From positions 1 through 28,819 of the IMG/VR virus record IMGVR_UViG_3300049432_000206: 28,819 bases of DNA; one strand, written 5' to 3'. Both the position numbers and the translations under genes were made by a program. Position 1 is the stretch's first letter. Every line of letters starts with the position of its first letter. This DNA is from a virus. Positions 1,324-8,389 of the stretch are shown one piece after another. The notes beneath the pieces are model-generated. The model worked only from the letters and a program-made list of their open reading frames with translations. It made no database searches and had not been told where the DNA came from.

Positions 1324-1506
1324 CTACTTCTTTGTTTTCGGCCGCCCGGGCTTGCGTACTCTCACCCTCGCGAGGTCCGCCGGCTCGATCATGTAGTCGC
1401 GACCGAACTTCACCGCGGGCAACCGCTTTGCGGCGATGAGCGCGCGAACTCTTCCAGGAGAAATCTTCAGCTTGGCAGCAGCTTGGGCAGTATTCAGAGG
1501 CGGCAT
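1324..1506 (-). CDS. Excisionase-like HTH protein (MerR/HTH_17 type)
   Basis: A 60-aa protein with a single DNA-binding helix-turn-helix of the excisionase/MerR kind. The core is LNTAQAAAKLKISPGRVRAL followed by the wing IAAKRLPAVKFGRDYMI and a basic tail (RKPGRPKTKK). Such proteins bind attachment sites or promoters and steer the integrase toward excision, or act as small repressors. It is convergent with int, so the two transcripts would meet or overlap at their 3' ends. No Shine-Dalgarno sequence precedes the ATG, but a good promoter sits almost directly on it, which suggests leaderless translation. It could equally be the lysogeny repressor or a transcription regulator; no other repressor candidate lies beside int. 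Confidence 0.75.
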   Translation of the reverse strand: MPPLNTAQAAAKLKISPGRVRALIAAKRLPAVKFGRDYMIEPADLARVRVRKPGRPKTKK

Positions 1507-2372: not shown

Positions 2373-3070
2373 CCAACACGCAAGACTCCGGCTGGTACGA
2401 GGTGCCGATCACCATCGGCGGCGTCGAAACCTGCCTCCGGTTCAAACATCCCGAGCCCCACGATTTCGACAACGACACCGGGTACACCTGCCCCGCGGCA
2501 TGGCGAAACCTCAAGCAGAGCCTCGGACGCGATTACGATATCGCAGAGTCAATGCTTGCCTTGGAAACGCTCGCCGGCAACGGCTGCGTCCGGCTCATCA
2601 TGAGCGTGGCGTTGGATTGGTTCGTCTGGCTGCGCGACGAACGTGATGTTGCTCTCGCAAATTTCCAGCCGACCCTCGCGCGGCTCGCCAGCGACTGCAT
2701 CCGCCGTCCCCACGAACCGTATCCGGACGACTTCGGGAATGATCGGCGCTACGCGCGCCCGGCAAGCTGGCGAAGGATCGGTCCGGGGATCTTCGGCCGT
2801 TGCTTCGATCAGACCGTCGCCGAGCTTGAGGGTATCGCACGCGAGAGCGAGCAGTGCCCGCGAGTGCTTTTCGCCGCCGCCCTCCACACGTTCGTTCGGA
2901 TGCCCGAGCTTGATCACACGATCGCGTGGCAGGTGCATTGGCTGCGCGCCGAGGAGGGGAATGGGCGCGAGCACTACGCGATCAGGTGCCGTCAAAGAAT
3001 TGAACAACTGATGCTCGTGAGGGCGACCGCTCTCTACGGAGGCGGCCGTGTGCGAGCGGGCGGGCCTTAG
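2369..3070 (+). CDS. Unknown early protein with an internal tandem duplication
   Basis: A 233-aa protein of unknown family built from two related modules. Residues about 30-88 and about 119-178 align over their whole length. Each starts with a P-x-DF-x-ND-x-x-Y-x-x-PA-x-W-R motif and continues into a helical stretch ending in a hydrophobic segment (IMSVALDWFVWL and LFAAALHTFVRM). In the first 17 aligned residues 10 are identical. A further helical tail follows (RQRIEQLMLVRATALYGGGR). The ATG at 2369 overlaps the stop of the previous gene (ATGA), so it is translationally coupled. No catalytic motif is visible. The duplication suggests a protein that binds two equivalent partners or acts as a pseudo-dimer, which is inference. 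Confidence 0.7.
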   Translation: MTNTQDSGWYEVPITIGGVETCLRFKHPEPHDFDNDTGYTCPAAWRNLKQSLGRDYDIAESMLALETLAGNGCVRLIMSVALDWFVWLRDERDVALANFQPTLARLASDCIRRPHEPYPDDFGNDRRYARPASWRRIGPGIFGRCFDQTVAELEGIARESEQCPRVLFAAALHTFVRMPELDHTIAWQVHWLRAEEGNGREHYAIRCRQRIEQLMLVRATALYGGGRVRAGGP

Positions 3071-3216
3071 TGGAGAACCGAAAGCGCGACAAGCTCGCGG
3101 TGCATGGTCGGTGGAGAACCCGTCAATTGGGTGCCAAGCTTAGCGGCGACGACGATTGCGCGGTAAAATTTGGGCTTGGGCTCCACGGCGCTGGCCAGCG
3201 CTGCGGTTCATCGGCT

Positions 3217-3254
3217 CGGCGAGACGATCGTTGCACCTTCAGATCGTCTCGCCG
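3217..3254. repeat. 13-bp perfect inverted repeat (hairpin)
   Basis: CGGCGAGACGATC (3217-3229) and GATCGTCTCGCCG (3242-3254) are perfectly complementary across a 12-base loop. No T-run follows, so it is not a standard intrinsic terminator. It could be an operator for a dimeric regulator, a replication hairpin, or a Rho-type 3' end hairpin for the preceding operon. Confidence 0.7.
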
Positions 3255-3303
3255 GACCGGCCCATCAAGGGTGCAAATGCCACTGCAATCAGATTATTCC
3301 ATT

Positions 3304-3460
3304 CCGGGTATGCGCGTGTGCGCACATCCGGTACACGCGACCGCGCACACCCGGCCGTGCGCCTTGGCGTGTATCGGGTATGCGCGTAGCCGTGCACCTG
3401 TTCATCCGCACACCGGGTCTGCGCGTAAGCGCACGCCGGGTGTTCGCCTTCGCGCACACC
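3304..3460. repeat. Cluster of GGGTATGCGCGT-type repeats in both orientations
   Basis: Forward copies are GGGTATGCGCGT at 3306 and again identically at 3376, GGGTCTGCGCGT at 3415 and a diverged GGGTGTTCGCCT at 3438. Reverse copies include GTGCGCACATCC (3318), CGCGCACACCC (3342), CGCACACCGGG (3408), GCGCACGCC (3429) and CGCGCACACC (3451). The first forward and reverse copies abut to form a 28-bp imperfect palindrome. The last two forward copies are 23 bases apart, the same period as the iterons at 6842-6930, with which they share GGGTAYGCGC. Confidence 0.7.
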
Positions 3461-3482
3461 GTTCAAACAATCGGGAGCACCT

Positions 3483-5174
3483 ATGAACGACGATGGAAAC
3501 GATGAGATTGTCGGGTACGAGATTGTCGGGTTTAAGGATCACGTGCCGCCCTCGACTGAGGACAACCTCGAGGAAGAAGAGTCGCCGGAAGCGATCGAGC
3601 CTCCGGACAAGACTGTTCTGTACACGCACGGCTGGCTGAAGAAGTTCGGACCACTTCTCAATGAGTCTGAGCGGCGGGTGTACGACGTTTTTGCGATCAA
3701 CTATGAGACTAAATTCGATGGGCTGGTCTGGATGGACCAGGGGAAGCTGGCTGAGAGCGCGGGTTATCAACGTCGCCAAACGGTCGGCGAAGCAATCCGC
3801 GGATTGAAGGCAAAGGGGCTGATCGACATCATCGACTGGCCGATCACCGTGATGGATCACGACGCCGGTGAACGGTTCCGCAATGTTGGCGGCGGGCGCG
3901 GCTCAGGCACTCATAACGTATTCATCCTTCTTCACGTCGACGACAGCGGCTATCACCGAGAAAAACGGGTTCGTCCAAACGTGCAAGAACTTCGACGAAC
4001 GCACGAAGAGTCGGCCGATCTTCCGGGGATTCTTACGCAAATGGTGCTGCAGGGGAAAAGTTATAAGTCCGTGCGCGAGTACGTCATTTCGAAATACCCG
4101 TTCGCGACGAACATTCCCATCTGGTGTGTGCCGGACGACATTGTGCTTGATGATCTCATGCAGCCCGAGAATTTCGGATTCGATTCGATGTTGATGGCCG
4201 GAGTGCTTTTGCCGATCAACGCGCTGAGGGGGAAGTATCCAGACGTTGGAAAGCCAGACATGGGGCTGATCCTCCAACACCCGACGCACGGCGACCCGTC
4301 GCTGATCGGTGAACGAGCGTTCGGACCTTACAGGCAGGCCGCGCAGGCGCTCGAAGAGTCGGGCAAAGCGGAGCAGATTCTTCGCGAGGCATCGGATAAC
4401 CGCGGCAAGTTTGATTTGCCGGCGATGTATCACGGCCGACCGCCGGGCTTAAAGGAGGTGGCGCCAGCAATGTTCGAAATGTCCGAGAAACTCAATGTCG
4501 CGCCCGCGCATCTCGTGCCGATGGCGCGCGATATTGCCATCAAAAGTGGGATGGTAATTATGATGATGAATGAAGATGGCGAAGGCGTCGCTATCGATTG
4601 CAAGGATCCGGATGAGTTTGTCGACGACGCCACGAAGCGCCTTGCGCTTCTCAGCGAGCAGGACCTAACCGAGCATGAAGCTCAAAATCGCGAGGAGACG
4701 GACCAGTTAATCAGGGCCGCGCAGCAGCGTGTCCGAGAAACTTTTTTTCATCATCTGCTGCGGGGGTCCGAGCCAGACGAAGCTGACAAAGATCTGCGAA
4801 CCTTGTTCACTGTCAACAATTTTAATGACTGGGTTCAGCAGGTGAACGGTCGCACCTACGCCGCACCGTTAATCCCGTTGATCCCCACTGATGCGAATGA
4901 GGCTCGCGCGCTCGCGTGCGCGGTTGCCGAGAGGAAAGGTGAAGCCTGTCGGTGCGAAGCGCCCAAGGAGCTCGCCTTCACTCCGGCACTGAATGAGACA
5001 GATCGGAAGATTGCCGACTACATCCGCGCTCACCCGGGCGAAAAGGGTTTGGTGATCGCTGCAGCGGTCGTCGTGACGCAGGAACATTTCAGACGGGTCT
5101 TCTCGACGAAGCTGGCGGCGCACGGTTTTACCAATCCCGGCAACGGCGACGGGTATTTCCCGCCGCCGGCGTAG
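3483..5174 (+). CDS. Large winged-helix DNA-binding protein, possible replication or early regulator
   Basis: A 563-aa acidic protein. After an acidic N-terminus (about 24-42) residues about 58-125 form a winged-helix-like domain (LNESERRVYDVFAINYETKF, then LAESAGYQRRQTVGEAIRGL, then KAKGLIDII), of the kind found in phage and plasmid replication initiators. A second short HTH-like segment lies near the C-terminus (about 500-560: LNETDRKIADYIRAHPGEKG then a recognition-like helix QEHFRRVFSTKLAAHGF). The middle is unassigned. A GGGAG Shine-Dalgarno sits 5 bases before the ATG. The repeat array ends only about 20 bases upstream, so it may bind that array and control itself or start replication. 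A 15-bp coding repeat gives EIVGYEIVG at residues 8-16. Function is inferred from fold and context. Confidence 0.75.
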   Translation: MNDDGNDEIVGYEIVGFKDHVPPSTEDNLEEEESPEAIEPPDKTVLYTHGWLKKFGPLLNESERRVYDVFAINYETKFDGLVWMDQGKLAESAGYQRRQTVGEAIRGLKAKGLIDIIDWPITVMDHDAGERFRNVGGGRGSGTHNVFILLHVDDSGYHREKRVRPNVQELRRTHEESADLPGILTQMVLQGKSYKSVREYVISKYPFATNIPIWCVPDDIVLDDLMQPENFGFDSMLMAGVLLPINALRGKYPDVGKPDMGLILQHPTHGDPSLIGERAFGPYRQAAQALEESGKAEQILREASDNRGKFDLPAMYHGRPPGLKEVAPAMFEMSEKLNVAPAHLVPMARDIAIKSGMVIMMMNEDGEGVAIDCKDPDEFVDDATKRLALLSEQDLTEHEAQNREETDQLIRAAQQRVRETFFHHLLRGSEPDEADKDLRTLFTVNNFNDWVQQVNGRTYAAPLIPLIPTDANEARALACAVAERKGEACRCEAPKELAFTPALNETDRKIADYIRAHPGEKGLVIAAAVVVTQEHFRRVFSTKLAAHGFTNPGNGDGYFPPPA

Positions 5175-5290: not shown

Positions 5291-5509
5291 ATGGCAGAAC
5301 ACATCACCGTCAGCGAGGCGGCTCGAGAACTCGCTGTCGCCCCCAGGTTAATTAGCGACCTTTTCTACCGCAGGCTTCTCGACGATGCCGCTGCGCCGAT
5401 CGTGGGCGGCCGAAGAATCATTCCGCGGACCTACCTCGACAACATTCGCGCGGTCTTGAGCCAGGCTGGACATCTGCCGGAAGCGGAGGCGGTGGCTCAT
5501 GCAAGCTAA
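5291..5509 (+). CDS. Small HTH DNA-binding protein
   Basis: A 72-aa protein with a helix-turn-helix of the excisionase/MerR type: ITVSEAARELAVAPRLISDL, then a wing FYRRLLDDAAAPIVGGRRII. It may be a transcription regulator of the early or replication genes, or a second excisionase-like factor. Its GGAGG ribosome binding site is within the stem at 5238-5288, so its translation is probably low unless the hairpin is opened. Its stop overlaps the start of the next gene by 11 bases, which points to co-translation of two DNA-binding proteins. Confidence 0.75.
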   Translation: MAEHITVSEAARELAVAPRLISDLFYRRLLDDAAAPIVGGRRIIPRTYLDNIRAVLSQAGHLPEAEAVAHAS

Positions 5510-5876
5510 AGCTCCACCGAAAAGAACCACCGCGCCGGCCGGCGGTGATCAAGACGCAAACGTTCTGGCAGATCTCGAAGCTGGCGAAGATGCGATCCCG
5601 CTGGCCGAGGTGCGCGATCAAACCTTCTGTCCGAAACGGCGAGGGAAAAAGCTCGACCGCAGCGTCGTTTTCAGATGGGCGAGCCGAGGGGTGAGGGGGA
5701 TCAAGCTTGAGACTACCTCCGCCGGCGGCCTGAGGATCACAACGAAGAGCGCGGTGCTGAGATTCTTCCACGGACTGAACGGCGGCGCCGCGTCCTCGCC
5801 GATACCAACGACGAAATCGAAAACCGCCAACGTTGACCGCGCTGCGCGCGAGCTGGCCACGATGGGGATGAAATGA
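5499..5876 (+). CDS. DUF1580-like DNA-binding protein
   Basis: A 125-aa protein whose middle (about 33-90) matches the pattern I know for DUF1580, a family seen mainly in planctomycetes. The pattern is a start with IPLAEVRDQTFCPKRRGKK, then VVFRWASRGVRGIKLET, then GGLRITTKSAVLRFFHGL. It resembles an HTH-17-like domain that picks a sequence with its RWA-x-RGVRG helix. N- and C-terminal tails are low complexity. It overlaps the preceding HTH gene by 11 bases. The role is probably transcription control or genome maintenance; no direct evidence shows which. The family resemblance is from memory and should be confirmed by profile search. Confidence 0.7.
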   Translation: MQAKAPPKRTTAPAGGDQDANVLADLEAGEDAIPLAEVRDQTFCPKRRGKKLDRSVVFRWASRGVRGIKLETTSAGGLRITTKSAVLRFFHGLNGGAASSPIPTTKSKTANVDRAARELATMGMK

Positions 5877-5933: not shown

Positions 5934-6356
5934 ATGAAAAGTAATTCGTGGCCGGACGGTCCTGCAGCACGCTCCACGCCCGCGCGCGGCCAGGGCGATC
6001 AACCCAATCTCTTCGAGGTTCCACCGGCGCCGCGCCGGCAGCCGTATGGGGGAGAGCCACCCGTGCACGCGCACGCCACCGACACCGAGATCGCCGCCGC
6101 GGAGAAGATCGCGCCCGTGGCAGGCACGCTCCGCGCGCTCGTTCTTCAGTGGATCACCGAAGCCGGGGACGAAGGGCTGACCGGACGAGAAGCGGGCTCG
6201 CGATACGCGTTGTCGATTGGCAAGGACGAGAACGATGGATCCGCGAGATATTCGATCATGCCTCGCGCGACGGAATTGAAAGGCGCTGGCCTGATCAAAG
6301 ACAGCGGCCGGCGTCGACAAGGTTCCATCGTTTGGATTCGGTCACCTCAAAGCTGA
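5934..6356 (+). CDS. Winged-helix protein, phage early regulator
   Basis: A 140-aa protein. A Pro/Ala-rich N-terminal half is followed by a winged-helix domain (about 65-135): GTLRALVLQWITEAGDEGLT, then REAGSRYAL, then RATELKGAGLIKDSGRRRQG. The RxxELxxAGLIxDSGxRR ending is typical of small winged-helix proteins encoded near phage replication genes. The ATG at 5934 is chosen over a GTG at 5919 because GGTGGGGGA lies 8-10 bases before it. It precedes the O-like initiator by 22 bases and probably belongs to the same operon. Confidence 0.7.
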   Translation: MKSNSWPDGPAARSTPARGQGDQPNLFEVPPAPRRQPYGGEPPVHAHATDTEIAAAEKIAPVAGTLRALVLQWITEAGDEGLTGREAGSRYALSIGKDENDGSARYSIMPRATELKGAGLIKDSGRRRQGSIVWIRSPQS

Positions 6357-6378
6357 AGCGAGATGGGCGCGCTGATCT

Positions 6379-7401
6379 ATGTCGAAACGATCCCCAAACC
6401 CCGACGCCCGCACTCTGTTCGAAGATCGATCGAACAAGGTCGCGAAATGGATCAAAGCCGTCGTTGATCAAGGACTTCTCCATTCCATGACTGAGCTCGA
6501 CACCAAGGTCGCCATGGCGCTTGCATCACACGCCGATTACACGGATCTGACCCTGTATCCCTCGGTACGCGCTCTAGCAGTGAAAATTGGCACGAAAGTT
6601 CCCCAACGCGTCAGAAAATCAATGGAGCGATTGGAGGCGATTGGTCTAATGCGAACGATAGAGCCTGGCGGCCGCGAGAGCCGGGACAGCCGGGGCCGCG
6701 CCACGCTTCGCCAACTCATAATCCCTGCCGAAACCGTTGCGGATCGGGGCTCATCGATAGGTACGCCCAGCGTACCCATCACAAAGCCGCCGACGGGTGC
6801 CCTCGGAGCACCCGTTGGATCACTTCCGACTGGGGCTGGATGGGTGCCCCCAGCGACATCCGATGGGTGCTCTGCGCGACATCCGATGGGTACGCGCAGC
6901 GACGATGAAGGGGTACGCGCAGAGTACCCCCAACCTCTTATAACTACCCAACTGAACTCTTCAGGAACCTTTCTGCCGCTGGCGCGGGTGCCGGAACCGA
7001 CCGGAAAGCCCCCGGTTAAGGCTCCCGCCAGAACGCCCGCCAGGAAGCAGCCCCAGCCGCCCACGGGCCATCAAGAACTCACCCGCTATTGGGTCAATCA
7101 GTGGAGTGAAAAATACAAGAGACCCTTTCCCTTCGGCGCTGGCGGGAATGGGTCGCGCCACGGGAAGTGCATCAAGTTCATCCTCGAATCGTGTGGCGGC
7201 GCGCTCGAAGACGCGAAAGCAGTCATCGACCGTTTTCTGTCCTGCGGAGACGGATTCTTCAACGGGCATCCGCTCGCGATGCTCGCCACCCCAACCCAAC
7301 TTCCGAAATTTCTCGTTGAACAAGTCAGCACCACGAAAGGCCGAATCAATGGACACCGATCAAGCAAAACAAGCGGACGCGAAGAGCACATCGAGTTCTA
7401 G
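6379..7401 (+). CDS. O-like replication initiator with an internal origin
   Basis: A 340-aa protein that fits a phage replication initiator (lambda O/DnaD-like organisation). Residues about 38-95 are a winged helix (MTELDTKVAMALASHADYTD, LYPSVRALAVKIGTK, VRKSMERLEAIGLMRTI). Residues about 100-225 are a Pro/Gly-rich linker. Residues about 228-300 form a second helical domain (TRYWVNQWSEKYKRPFPFGA ... AKAVIDRFLS) that in such proteins contacts the helicase loader or single-stranded DNA. The helicase loader follows directly, overlapping by 53 bases. The linker DNA contains a 23-bp iteron array (6842-6930), as lambda O contains ori. No strong Shine-Dalgarno precedes the ATG. The assignment rests on domain order, origin and neighbour, not on close sequence identity. 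Confidence 0.8.
   Translation: MSKRSPNPDARTLFEDRSNKVAKWIKAVVDQGLLHSMTELDTKVAMALASHADYTDLTLYPSVRALAVKIGTKVPQRVRKSMERLEAIGLMRTIEPGGRESRDSRGRATLRQLIIPAETVADRGSSIGTPSVPITKPPTGALGAPVGSLPTGAGWVPPATSDGCSARHPMGTRSDDEGVRAEYPQPLITTQLNSSGTFLPLARVPEPTGKPPVKAPARTPARKQPQPPTGHQELTRYWVNQWSEKYKRPFPFGAGGNGSRHGKCIKFILESCGGALEDAKAVIDRFLSCGDGFFNGHPLAMLATPTQLPKFLVEQVSTTKGRINGHRSSKTSGREEHIEF
6759..6813. repeat. Two palindromic outlying iterons
   Basis: GGTACGCCCAGCGTACC (6760-6776) and GGGTGCCCTCGGAGCACCC (6795-6813) are inverted-repeat versions of the iteron seen downstream. The second begins 47 bases before the regular array, close to two periods. Confidence 0.65.
6842..6930 (+). repeat. Four iterons at exact 23-bp spacing: candidate replication origin
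   Basis: Copies start at 6842 (GGGTGCCCCCAGCGACATCC), 6865 (GGGTGCTCTGCGCGACATCC), 6888 (GGGTACGCGCAGCGACGATG) and 6911 (GGGTACGCGCAGAGTACCCC). The period of 23 is not a multiple of three, so the repeat is read in three different frames and gives unrelated peptides. Selection must therefore be on DNA. A stretch of about 57% A+T (6931-6965, with CTCTTATAACTA) follows and could be the unwinding element. Confidence 0.85.
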
Positions 7402-8389
7402 CGACGACGGCGGCGACGTGATGCTCATGTCGATCACGCTGAATCGCGCGAACATTGCGACAGCCGGCATGACGTCACAGCAGATCCGCGATCGCTATCA
7501 GCAGCATCGCGCTGAAGCAGATCGATCGGCGGAAGAGCGGGATCGAGCCGCCACGGAAGATCGGCTCAAGAGACTCCGCCGCGCGCACGAGGAAAACATG
7601 CGCGAGGCCTTGGAGCGTCGAAAAATCGACGCGACGGGAATGTCGATCGAGCAGATGGAGACCAAGCTCGCGTACCTGCAGGCCGCGGATAGGGAGCGCG
7701 AAGCAGAATCACGGCGCCGACGGGAAGTAGATCAACGAAAGCAACGCGCGGCCGCACTGTTCGCCCTGGCTCAGTGCCCGGAGCGTCACGTAGCAAATAT
7801 GGCGATGGCTGAGGCGACGGATAATCCACGCTGGAAAGCGGTTCGTGATCAGCTCGTCGATCGGATTCAGTACGCCGACGGATTCCTCGTCGCGCTGCTC
7901 GGCATCCGGGGCCCGGGCAAAACTCAAATTGCGGTGAGCGTAATTCATCGCGCGACGGCGCAGATGTGCACCGCCAGATACGTAAAAGCGATGGATCTGT
8001 TCAGACTGATTCGTCGCGCCTTTGCTTCTCGCGAGCGTGGTGAAGCCAGCGAGATGGAAGACGACATCGTCGAAGAGTTGGTCGCGTTCGACCTGCTGGT
8101 GATCGATGAGCTCGACCAGCGAGGCCAGACGGACTGGGAGCAAAACGTGTTGGTCAACCTGATCGATCGGCGATACGACGCGCGCAAGTGCACGCTGCTG
8201 ATATCGAACGCCGAGAAACCGAACTTTGCTGCGATGATGGGCGCCAGCGTCGCCAGCCGCATCGCCGAGACCGGAGAATCGATCGAATGTGAGTGGCCGT
8301 CATACCGCCGGCCTGGATCGTGGAAGACCCGCGGCGACGAGCCCCGAAAGCCATCCGGCCAGGTGAATGAATCACGGGAGGATTTATGA
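7349..8389 (+). CDS. DnaC/IstB-like AAA+ helicase loader
   Basis: A 346-aa protein that would load the replicative helicase at the phage origin. Residues about 40-135 are a highly charged, coiled-coil-like region. The AAA+ part holds Walker A GIRGPGKT (185-192), Walker B LLVIDE (249-254), a sensor-1-like LLISN (283-287) and a candidate arginine finger in SVASRIAE (R304). This is the DnaC/IstB family order. It sits straight after the O-like initiator as lambda P follows O. The ATG at 7349 has GAAAGG 8 bases upstream and overlaps the previous gene by 53 bases; ATGs at 7421 and 7427 are alternatives but lack a clear ribosome binding site and would remove only a Ser/Asp-rich tail. Confidence 0.88.
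   Translation: MDTDQAKQADAKSTSSSSDDGGDVMLMSITLNRANIATAGMTSQQIRDRYQQHRAEADRSAEERDRAATEDRLKRLRRAHEENMREALERRKIDATGMSIEQMETKLAYLQAADREREAESRRRREVDQRKQRAAALFALAQCPERHVANMAMAEATDNPRWKAVRDQLVDRIQYADGFLVALLGIRGPGKTQIAVSVIHRATAQMCTARYVKAMDLFRLIRRAFASRERGEASEMEDDIVEELVAFDLLVIDELDQRGQTDWEQNVLVNLIDRRYDARKCTLLISNAEKPNFAAMMGASVASRIAETGESIECEWPSYRRPGSWKTRGDEPRKPSGQVNESREDL

Follow-up and report, generated by a model that had tools for sequence, protein, structure and literature searches.

The window analysed here is the whole virus record IMGVR_UViG_3300049432_000206, 28,819 bases in length and with a GC content of 63%. The first codon of the record is that of an integrase gene and its end is a stop codon, suggesting that it is a provirus trimmed at gene boundaries. 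Structural genes for terminase, portal, protease, capsid and tape measure confirm that it is a tailed phage, and the integrase places it in a temperate-phage context. The features relevant to this analysis are the following:

1324-1506, minus strand: gene for an HTH_17 excisionase-like protein (PF12728, E=5.5e-10), adjoining the integrase gene
3212-3259, no strand: inverted repeat of 18 bp with a 12-nt spacer, 89% complementary, just upstream of the AT-rich patch and array 1
3264-3303, no strand: AT-rich 40-mer (60% AT), directly abutting array 1
3304-3461, no strand: array 1, 158 bp of alternating inverted half-sites with the consensus CCGGGTRTGCGC and a 23-bp period
3304, 3328 (weak), 3351, 3374, 3413 and 3436: plus-strand half-sites of array 1
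3320, 3343, 3366 (weak), 3389 (weak), 3406, 3429 and 3452: minus-strand half-sites of array 1
3483-5174, plus strand: gene for P563, a 563-aa orphan protein with weak HTH-like segments (residues 84-127 and 503-520), directly downstream of array 1
6379-7401, plus strand: gene for a 340-aa candidate replication initiator with an N-terminal HTH_36, array 2 lying in its linker region
6755-6931, no strand: array 2, candidate origin with up to six imperfect dyads GATGGGTRC-N7-GYACCCATC
Near 6768, 6804, 6851, 6874, 6897 and 6920: dyad centres of array 2, with a 23-bp period in the last four
6932-6975, no strand: AT-rich patch that directly follows array 2, a candidate unwinding element
7349-8389, plus strand: gene for a DnaC-like helicase loader (phrog_50, E=2.6e-28), the next gene after the 340-aa ORF

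Beside the HTH_17 gene, divergent sigma-70-like promoters lie at 1510-1607, inside the most AT-rich patch of the record, and the two together (1324-1506 and 1510-1607) likely constitute an early or lysogeny control region. Further, a DUF1580 protein is encoded at 5499-5876 (E=6.8e-9), and the terminase relative L030 carries two genes similar to this one. The DUF1580 family is known from Planctomycetes, hinting at a host in this group.

Array 1 occupies the gap between the preceding ORF, which ends at 3070, and the P563 gene, which starts at 3483. It consists of 13 half-sites with alternating strands, 10 of which are good; same-strand neighbours are mostly spaced by 23 bp, and the dyad spacing is 24 bp. 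There is a single register break near 3398-3405, and one plus-strand half-site is absent near 3397. The self-similarity of the array at 23 bp is 0.53, a value matched by none of 1000 dinucleotide shuffles and the highest among all scanned stretches of the window. When array 1 was compared to its own reverse complement, its self-match was attained in 3 of 500 shuffles, while the number of individual dyad centres by itself lacked significance. Tandem Repeats Finder (TRF) returned period 23 for arrays 1 and 2 as its two best-scoring rows. Finally, up to 11 hits of the array 1 matrix are clustered in the array, and any other cluster in the record contains at most four. Array 1 is a real, regular and unusually long array at the DNA level.

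The initial annotation had described this region as two identical GGGTATGCGCGT copies accompanied by variants in both directions, with copies 23 bp apart. Indeed, the two copies are present at 3306-3317 and 3376-3387, the variants correspond to the half-sites on both strands of a regular lattice, and the 23-bp distance recurs at 3413/3436, 3351/3374, 3320/3343 and 3406/3429/3452. The array is, however, more aptly seen as half-sites in alternating, inverted orientation than as a set of copies plus variants.

An ORF at 3070-3486 spans array 1 and fits neatly between its neighbours, overlapping both by a few bases. Its codon score of -0.32 is at the level of wrong frames, compared with 0.25-0.29 for the genes of the integrase, P563 and the loader, all three of which were in the training set, and the coding reading of array 1 was rejected because the codon usage of the ORF is non-coding. 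The earlier statement that neither array is explained by coding therefore holds for array 1. Array 2, in contrast, is located inside the gene 6379-7401, but its units fall in different reading frames of this ORF, and thus repetition at the protein level is no explanation of array 2. Upstream of array 1, the AT-rich 40-mer at 3264-3303 is one of 16 comparable patches in the record and might serve in unwinding or contain a promoter. A search for sigma-70-like promoters found none at 3000-3600, the nearest good one being at 1563-1591, so array 1 may sit inside a longer transcription unit.

The gene behind the array had been called a winged-helix gene. Array 1 does precede the P563 gene, but for the winged-helix identity the domain searches gave sub-threshold hits only (HTH_Crp_2, E=0.034, 14.6 bits with a cut-off of 27). 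Pfam, PHROGs and NCBIfam contained no Rep family match for P563, and no relatives were detected by tblastn or pattern scans of viral contigs, genome contigs, phages and plasmids. The predicted structure model had a pLDDT of 34 and was unusable.

Relatives of the phage were found through its terminase, with up to 69% identity. In the ten terminase-relative records searched there was no match to P563, and tblastn with the loader and the 340-aa protein gave no hit in the fetched terminase-relative loci, some of which are so short that absence there means little. The closest terminase relative (L108 of the pair L030/L108) has different genes in its replication region. DNA patterns of array 1 units occurred in viral contigs as single matches in unrelated sequence and not as arrays. 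Clusters of 7-9 weak matrix hits were present in GC-rich relatives, and none of the best six, which we inspected, was an array like array 1. Repeats of other kinds were noticed as well: a related phage contig (L031, 583-777) contains 4.3 copies of a 45-bp repeat with 95% matches, unlike array 1 in sequence and period, and an unrelated viral contig (L008, ~6100-6380) contains a short-repeat array (GGACCCGGCTAG, TAGCATCTCGTGCTAA) that surrounds a chance hit of the array 1 pattern.

Array 2 had been proposed as the origin at 6.9 kb, and its anatomy agrees with this proposal: the repeats lie inside a putative initiator gene, an AT-rich region of ~40 bp is adjacent, and a gene for a DnaC-like helicase loader is the neighbour. 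Array 2 thus looks like a lambda-type origin. The lambda origin in gene O likewise has repeats inside the initiator gene, an AT-rich patch and a helicase-loader gene, and the imperfect dyads of array 2 may correspond to its ~19-bp inverted repeats (its anatomy is reviewed in PMC5043065). It differs in that the candidate initiator here is an HTH_36 protein without detected relatives, that the loader is DnaC-like and not lambda P, and that only three of the six dyads of array 2 are clear (6756-6780, 6792-6818 and 6911-6929), the other three having one poor arm. The core dyad, GGGTRC-N7-GYACCC, is ~19 bp long. Across the whole array the inverted self-match was attained in 43 of 500 shuffles and the 23-bp periodicity in 1 of 1000. 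The HTH_36 match of the 340-aa protein (E=9.5e-5, 22.6 bits) is just below the curated cut-off of 25, and the cumulative GC skew has its peak near 8.4 kb. For the 340-aa protein, tblastn or pattern scans of viral contigs and phages revealed no relatives, and for the loader they gave distant DnaC-like hits only.

Our preferred explanation, which is a tentative one, is that array 1 is an operator array bound by P563 and distinct from the origin in array 2. It would be a cis-acting array at the DNA level, with about 13 alternating half-sites acting as an assembly platform for a phage-encoded DNA-binding protein. This protein would most likely be P563, since the product of an adjacent gene is normally considered first; the 340-aa protein, the HTH_17 protein (1324-1506) or a host protein would be further candidates. 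As an operator, array 1 would probably serve the autoregulation of the P563 gene and of what follows it, and because an AT-rich patch abuts the array, an additional role similar to that of an iteron origin is conceivable. The lambda-type origin inside the 340-aa HTH_36 gene would be separate from it; its probable binder would be the 340-aa protein, and it would operate together with the DnaC-like loader. Protein binding at array 1, the identity of the binder and the regulatory outcome are what we infer here. Several observations speak against this explanation. P563 has neither a confident DNA-binding domain nor a usable structure model, the module was not seen in any of the relatives searched, and a 23-bp period and a 10-mer core are common to both arrays, which a common binder would explain. 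The lack of a sigma-70-like promoter at 3000-3600 and the RNA folding of the array region, which exceeds that of shuffles, likewise count against it.

A likely analogue for such autoregulation is that of RepE of the F plasmid, where a repeated array and inverted repeats are also situated just upstream of a gene near the replication region (PMC13028717). The F sites (iterons, inverted operator repeats and incC) serve one initiator and its own gene, whereas here array 1 precedes P563, the 340-aa gene contains the origin-like repeats, and there is no support for motif sharing. The earlier idea of a control site upstream of the gene is supported insofar as array 1 has the look of a cis-acting array of protein-binding sites that precedes a gene; the shared initiator that was part of this idea found no support.

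The shared initiator had been proposed because of a core, GGGTAYGCGC, common to the two arrays, with array 1 as a control or handcuffing site. In the record this exact motif is confined to the arrays, with four occurrences, two per array. As a 10-mer string the core is indeed shared, but a common motif was not established by cross-matrix and shuffle tests. With a matrix built from all array 1 half-sites, the best array 2 site has rank 358 of ~57,000 places; the rank is 87 when only the strong half-sites are used and 18 for the 10-bp core alone. Conversely, the best array 1 site has rank 44 with the array 2 matrix. Matches as good as the best ungapped one between the arrays were seen in 47 of 300 shuffles and with 19 of 158 other segments of the window. 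The similarity of the whole profiles is borderline (133 of 2000 column shuffles and 35 of 1948 same-layout controls reach the value), and it occurs in a register and orientation different from those of GGGTAYGCGC. Furthermore, the core is present in only two of the six array 2 units, and the dyad spacing is 24 bp in array 1 and 19 bp in array 2. The presence of one motif at both origin and array 1, which would mark a control locus, is borderline at best, and the two arrays lack good motif sharing.

Could the 340-aa protein nevertheless be a single initiator for both arrays, with array 2 as the origin and array 1, 3.5 kb away, as a locus for control or handcuffing in the manner of F incC or P4 crr? 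We consider this unlikely. The confinement of the exact core to the arrays, their common 23-bp period and the borderline profile similarity are in line with it, as is the ability of some initiators to bind more than one type of site: F RepE recognises inverted operator repeats in addition to its iterons and a second iteron locus (PMC13028717), and RctB of Vibrio cholerae chromosome 2 binds 12-mers as well as 39-mers, two unlike site types (PMC5395669). The example of RctB means that weak similarity alone does not rule out a shared binder. However, RctB binds its sites, whereas arrays 1 and 2 are putative binding sites recognised from their sequence. Moreover, neither array's matrix singles out the other array, the best local match is no better than in shuffles, and core distribution and dyad geometry differ between the arrays. 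Neither one initiator for both arrays nor handcuffing at array 1 gained support from the tests that were run, and a shared binder appears unsupported. The common 23-bp period is the one remaining feature that it would explain and, together with initiators such as F RepE and RctB, which bind differently arranged sites, it keeps this possibility alive.

It is comparably improbable that array 1 is the operator of another regulator, either a host protein, a lysogeny repressor or the excisionase-like HTH_17 protein (1324-1506). In favour of this explanation we counted that lysogeny control commonly involves arrays of several operators, along with the temperate-phage context given by the integrase and the genuine HTH_17 protein encoded in the record. 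On the other hand, a repressor gene was not identified in the record, and the HTH_17 gene is served by a separate, divergent promoter region, 1.7 kb from array 1, at which there is no cluster of array 1 sites.

In the operator reading with P563 as the binder, an iteron-like role would be an extra one. Alternatively, array 1 could itself be a second, iteron-type origin with P563 as its initiator, giving a phage with two origins, to which we assign an equally low probability. The order of elements, from the AT-rich patch (3264-3303) through the array (3304-3461) to the gene start (3483), would suit an iteron replicon, in that repeats and an AT-rich element are found in non-coding DNA upstream of a gene; this gene is, however, not a recognised Rep initiator gene. 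RepA_N replicons, among them the phage satellite PLE, have semi-palindromic iterons beside their initiator gene, and these direct repeats are likewise found in non-coding DNA (PMC7145576); in prophages, the origin can be placed within repA or just upstream of it (PMC7157519). Unlike the initiators of these replicons, P563 matches neither RepA_N nor any other Rep family in Pfam, PHROGs or NCBIfam. In addition, the record encodes an integrase, so plasmid maintenance would be unnecessary; AT-rich patches are not rare, and the GC skew peak is away from array 1. A more elaborate version is slightly less probable still: two distinct origin-like modules 3.5 kb apart, a lambda-type intragenic one with its loader and an iteron-plasmid-type array with an own P563 initiator family, which would be used at different stages or be jointly regulated.

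The least likely explanation is that array 1 acts as RNA, as a leader of tandem hairpins controlling P563 expression: the array is located upstream of the ribosome-binding site in a plausible transcript and the RNA folding energy of the region beats that of shuffles (z -2.8; 1 of 200 equally good), but such scores are expected from palindromic DNA sites alone, the minimum-energy fold ignores the repeat units, the arms show no compensatory pairing across units, and an Rfam search of the region gave no match. RNA hairpins as the main reading were rejected by the arm re-pairing test, in which a fraction of 0.967 of the re-pairings was at least as good as the own partners. Since the own partner of an arm is no better than the arms of other units, the arms look like independent half-sites for a protein, which probably fit array 1 better than RNA hairpins do.

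At present, one initiator shared by the two arrays should not be passed on as an established claim. Should the two-origin reading hold, an iteron-type and a lambda-type origin would coexist in one temperate phage. Under the preferred operator reading, if correct, P563 would represent a family of DNA-binding proteins that has no known relatives, and its natural binding array, unusually long and regular, would serve to identify it.
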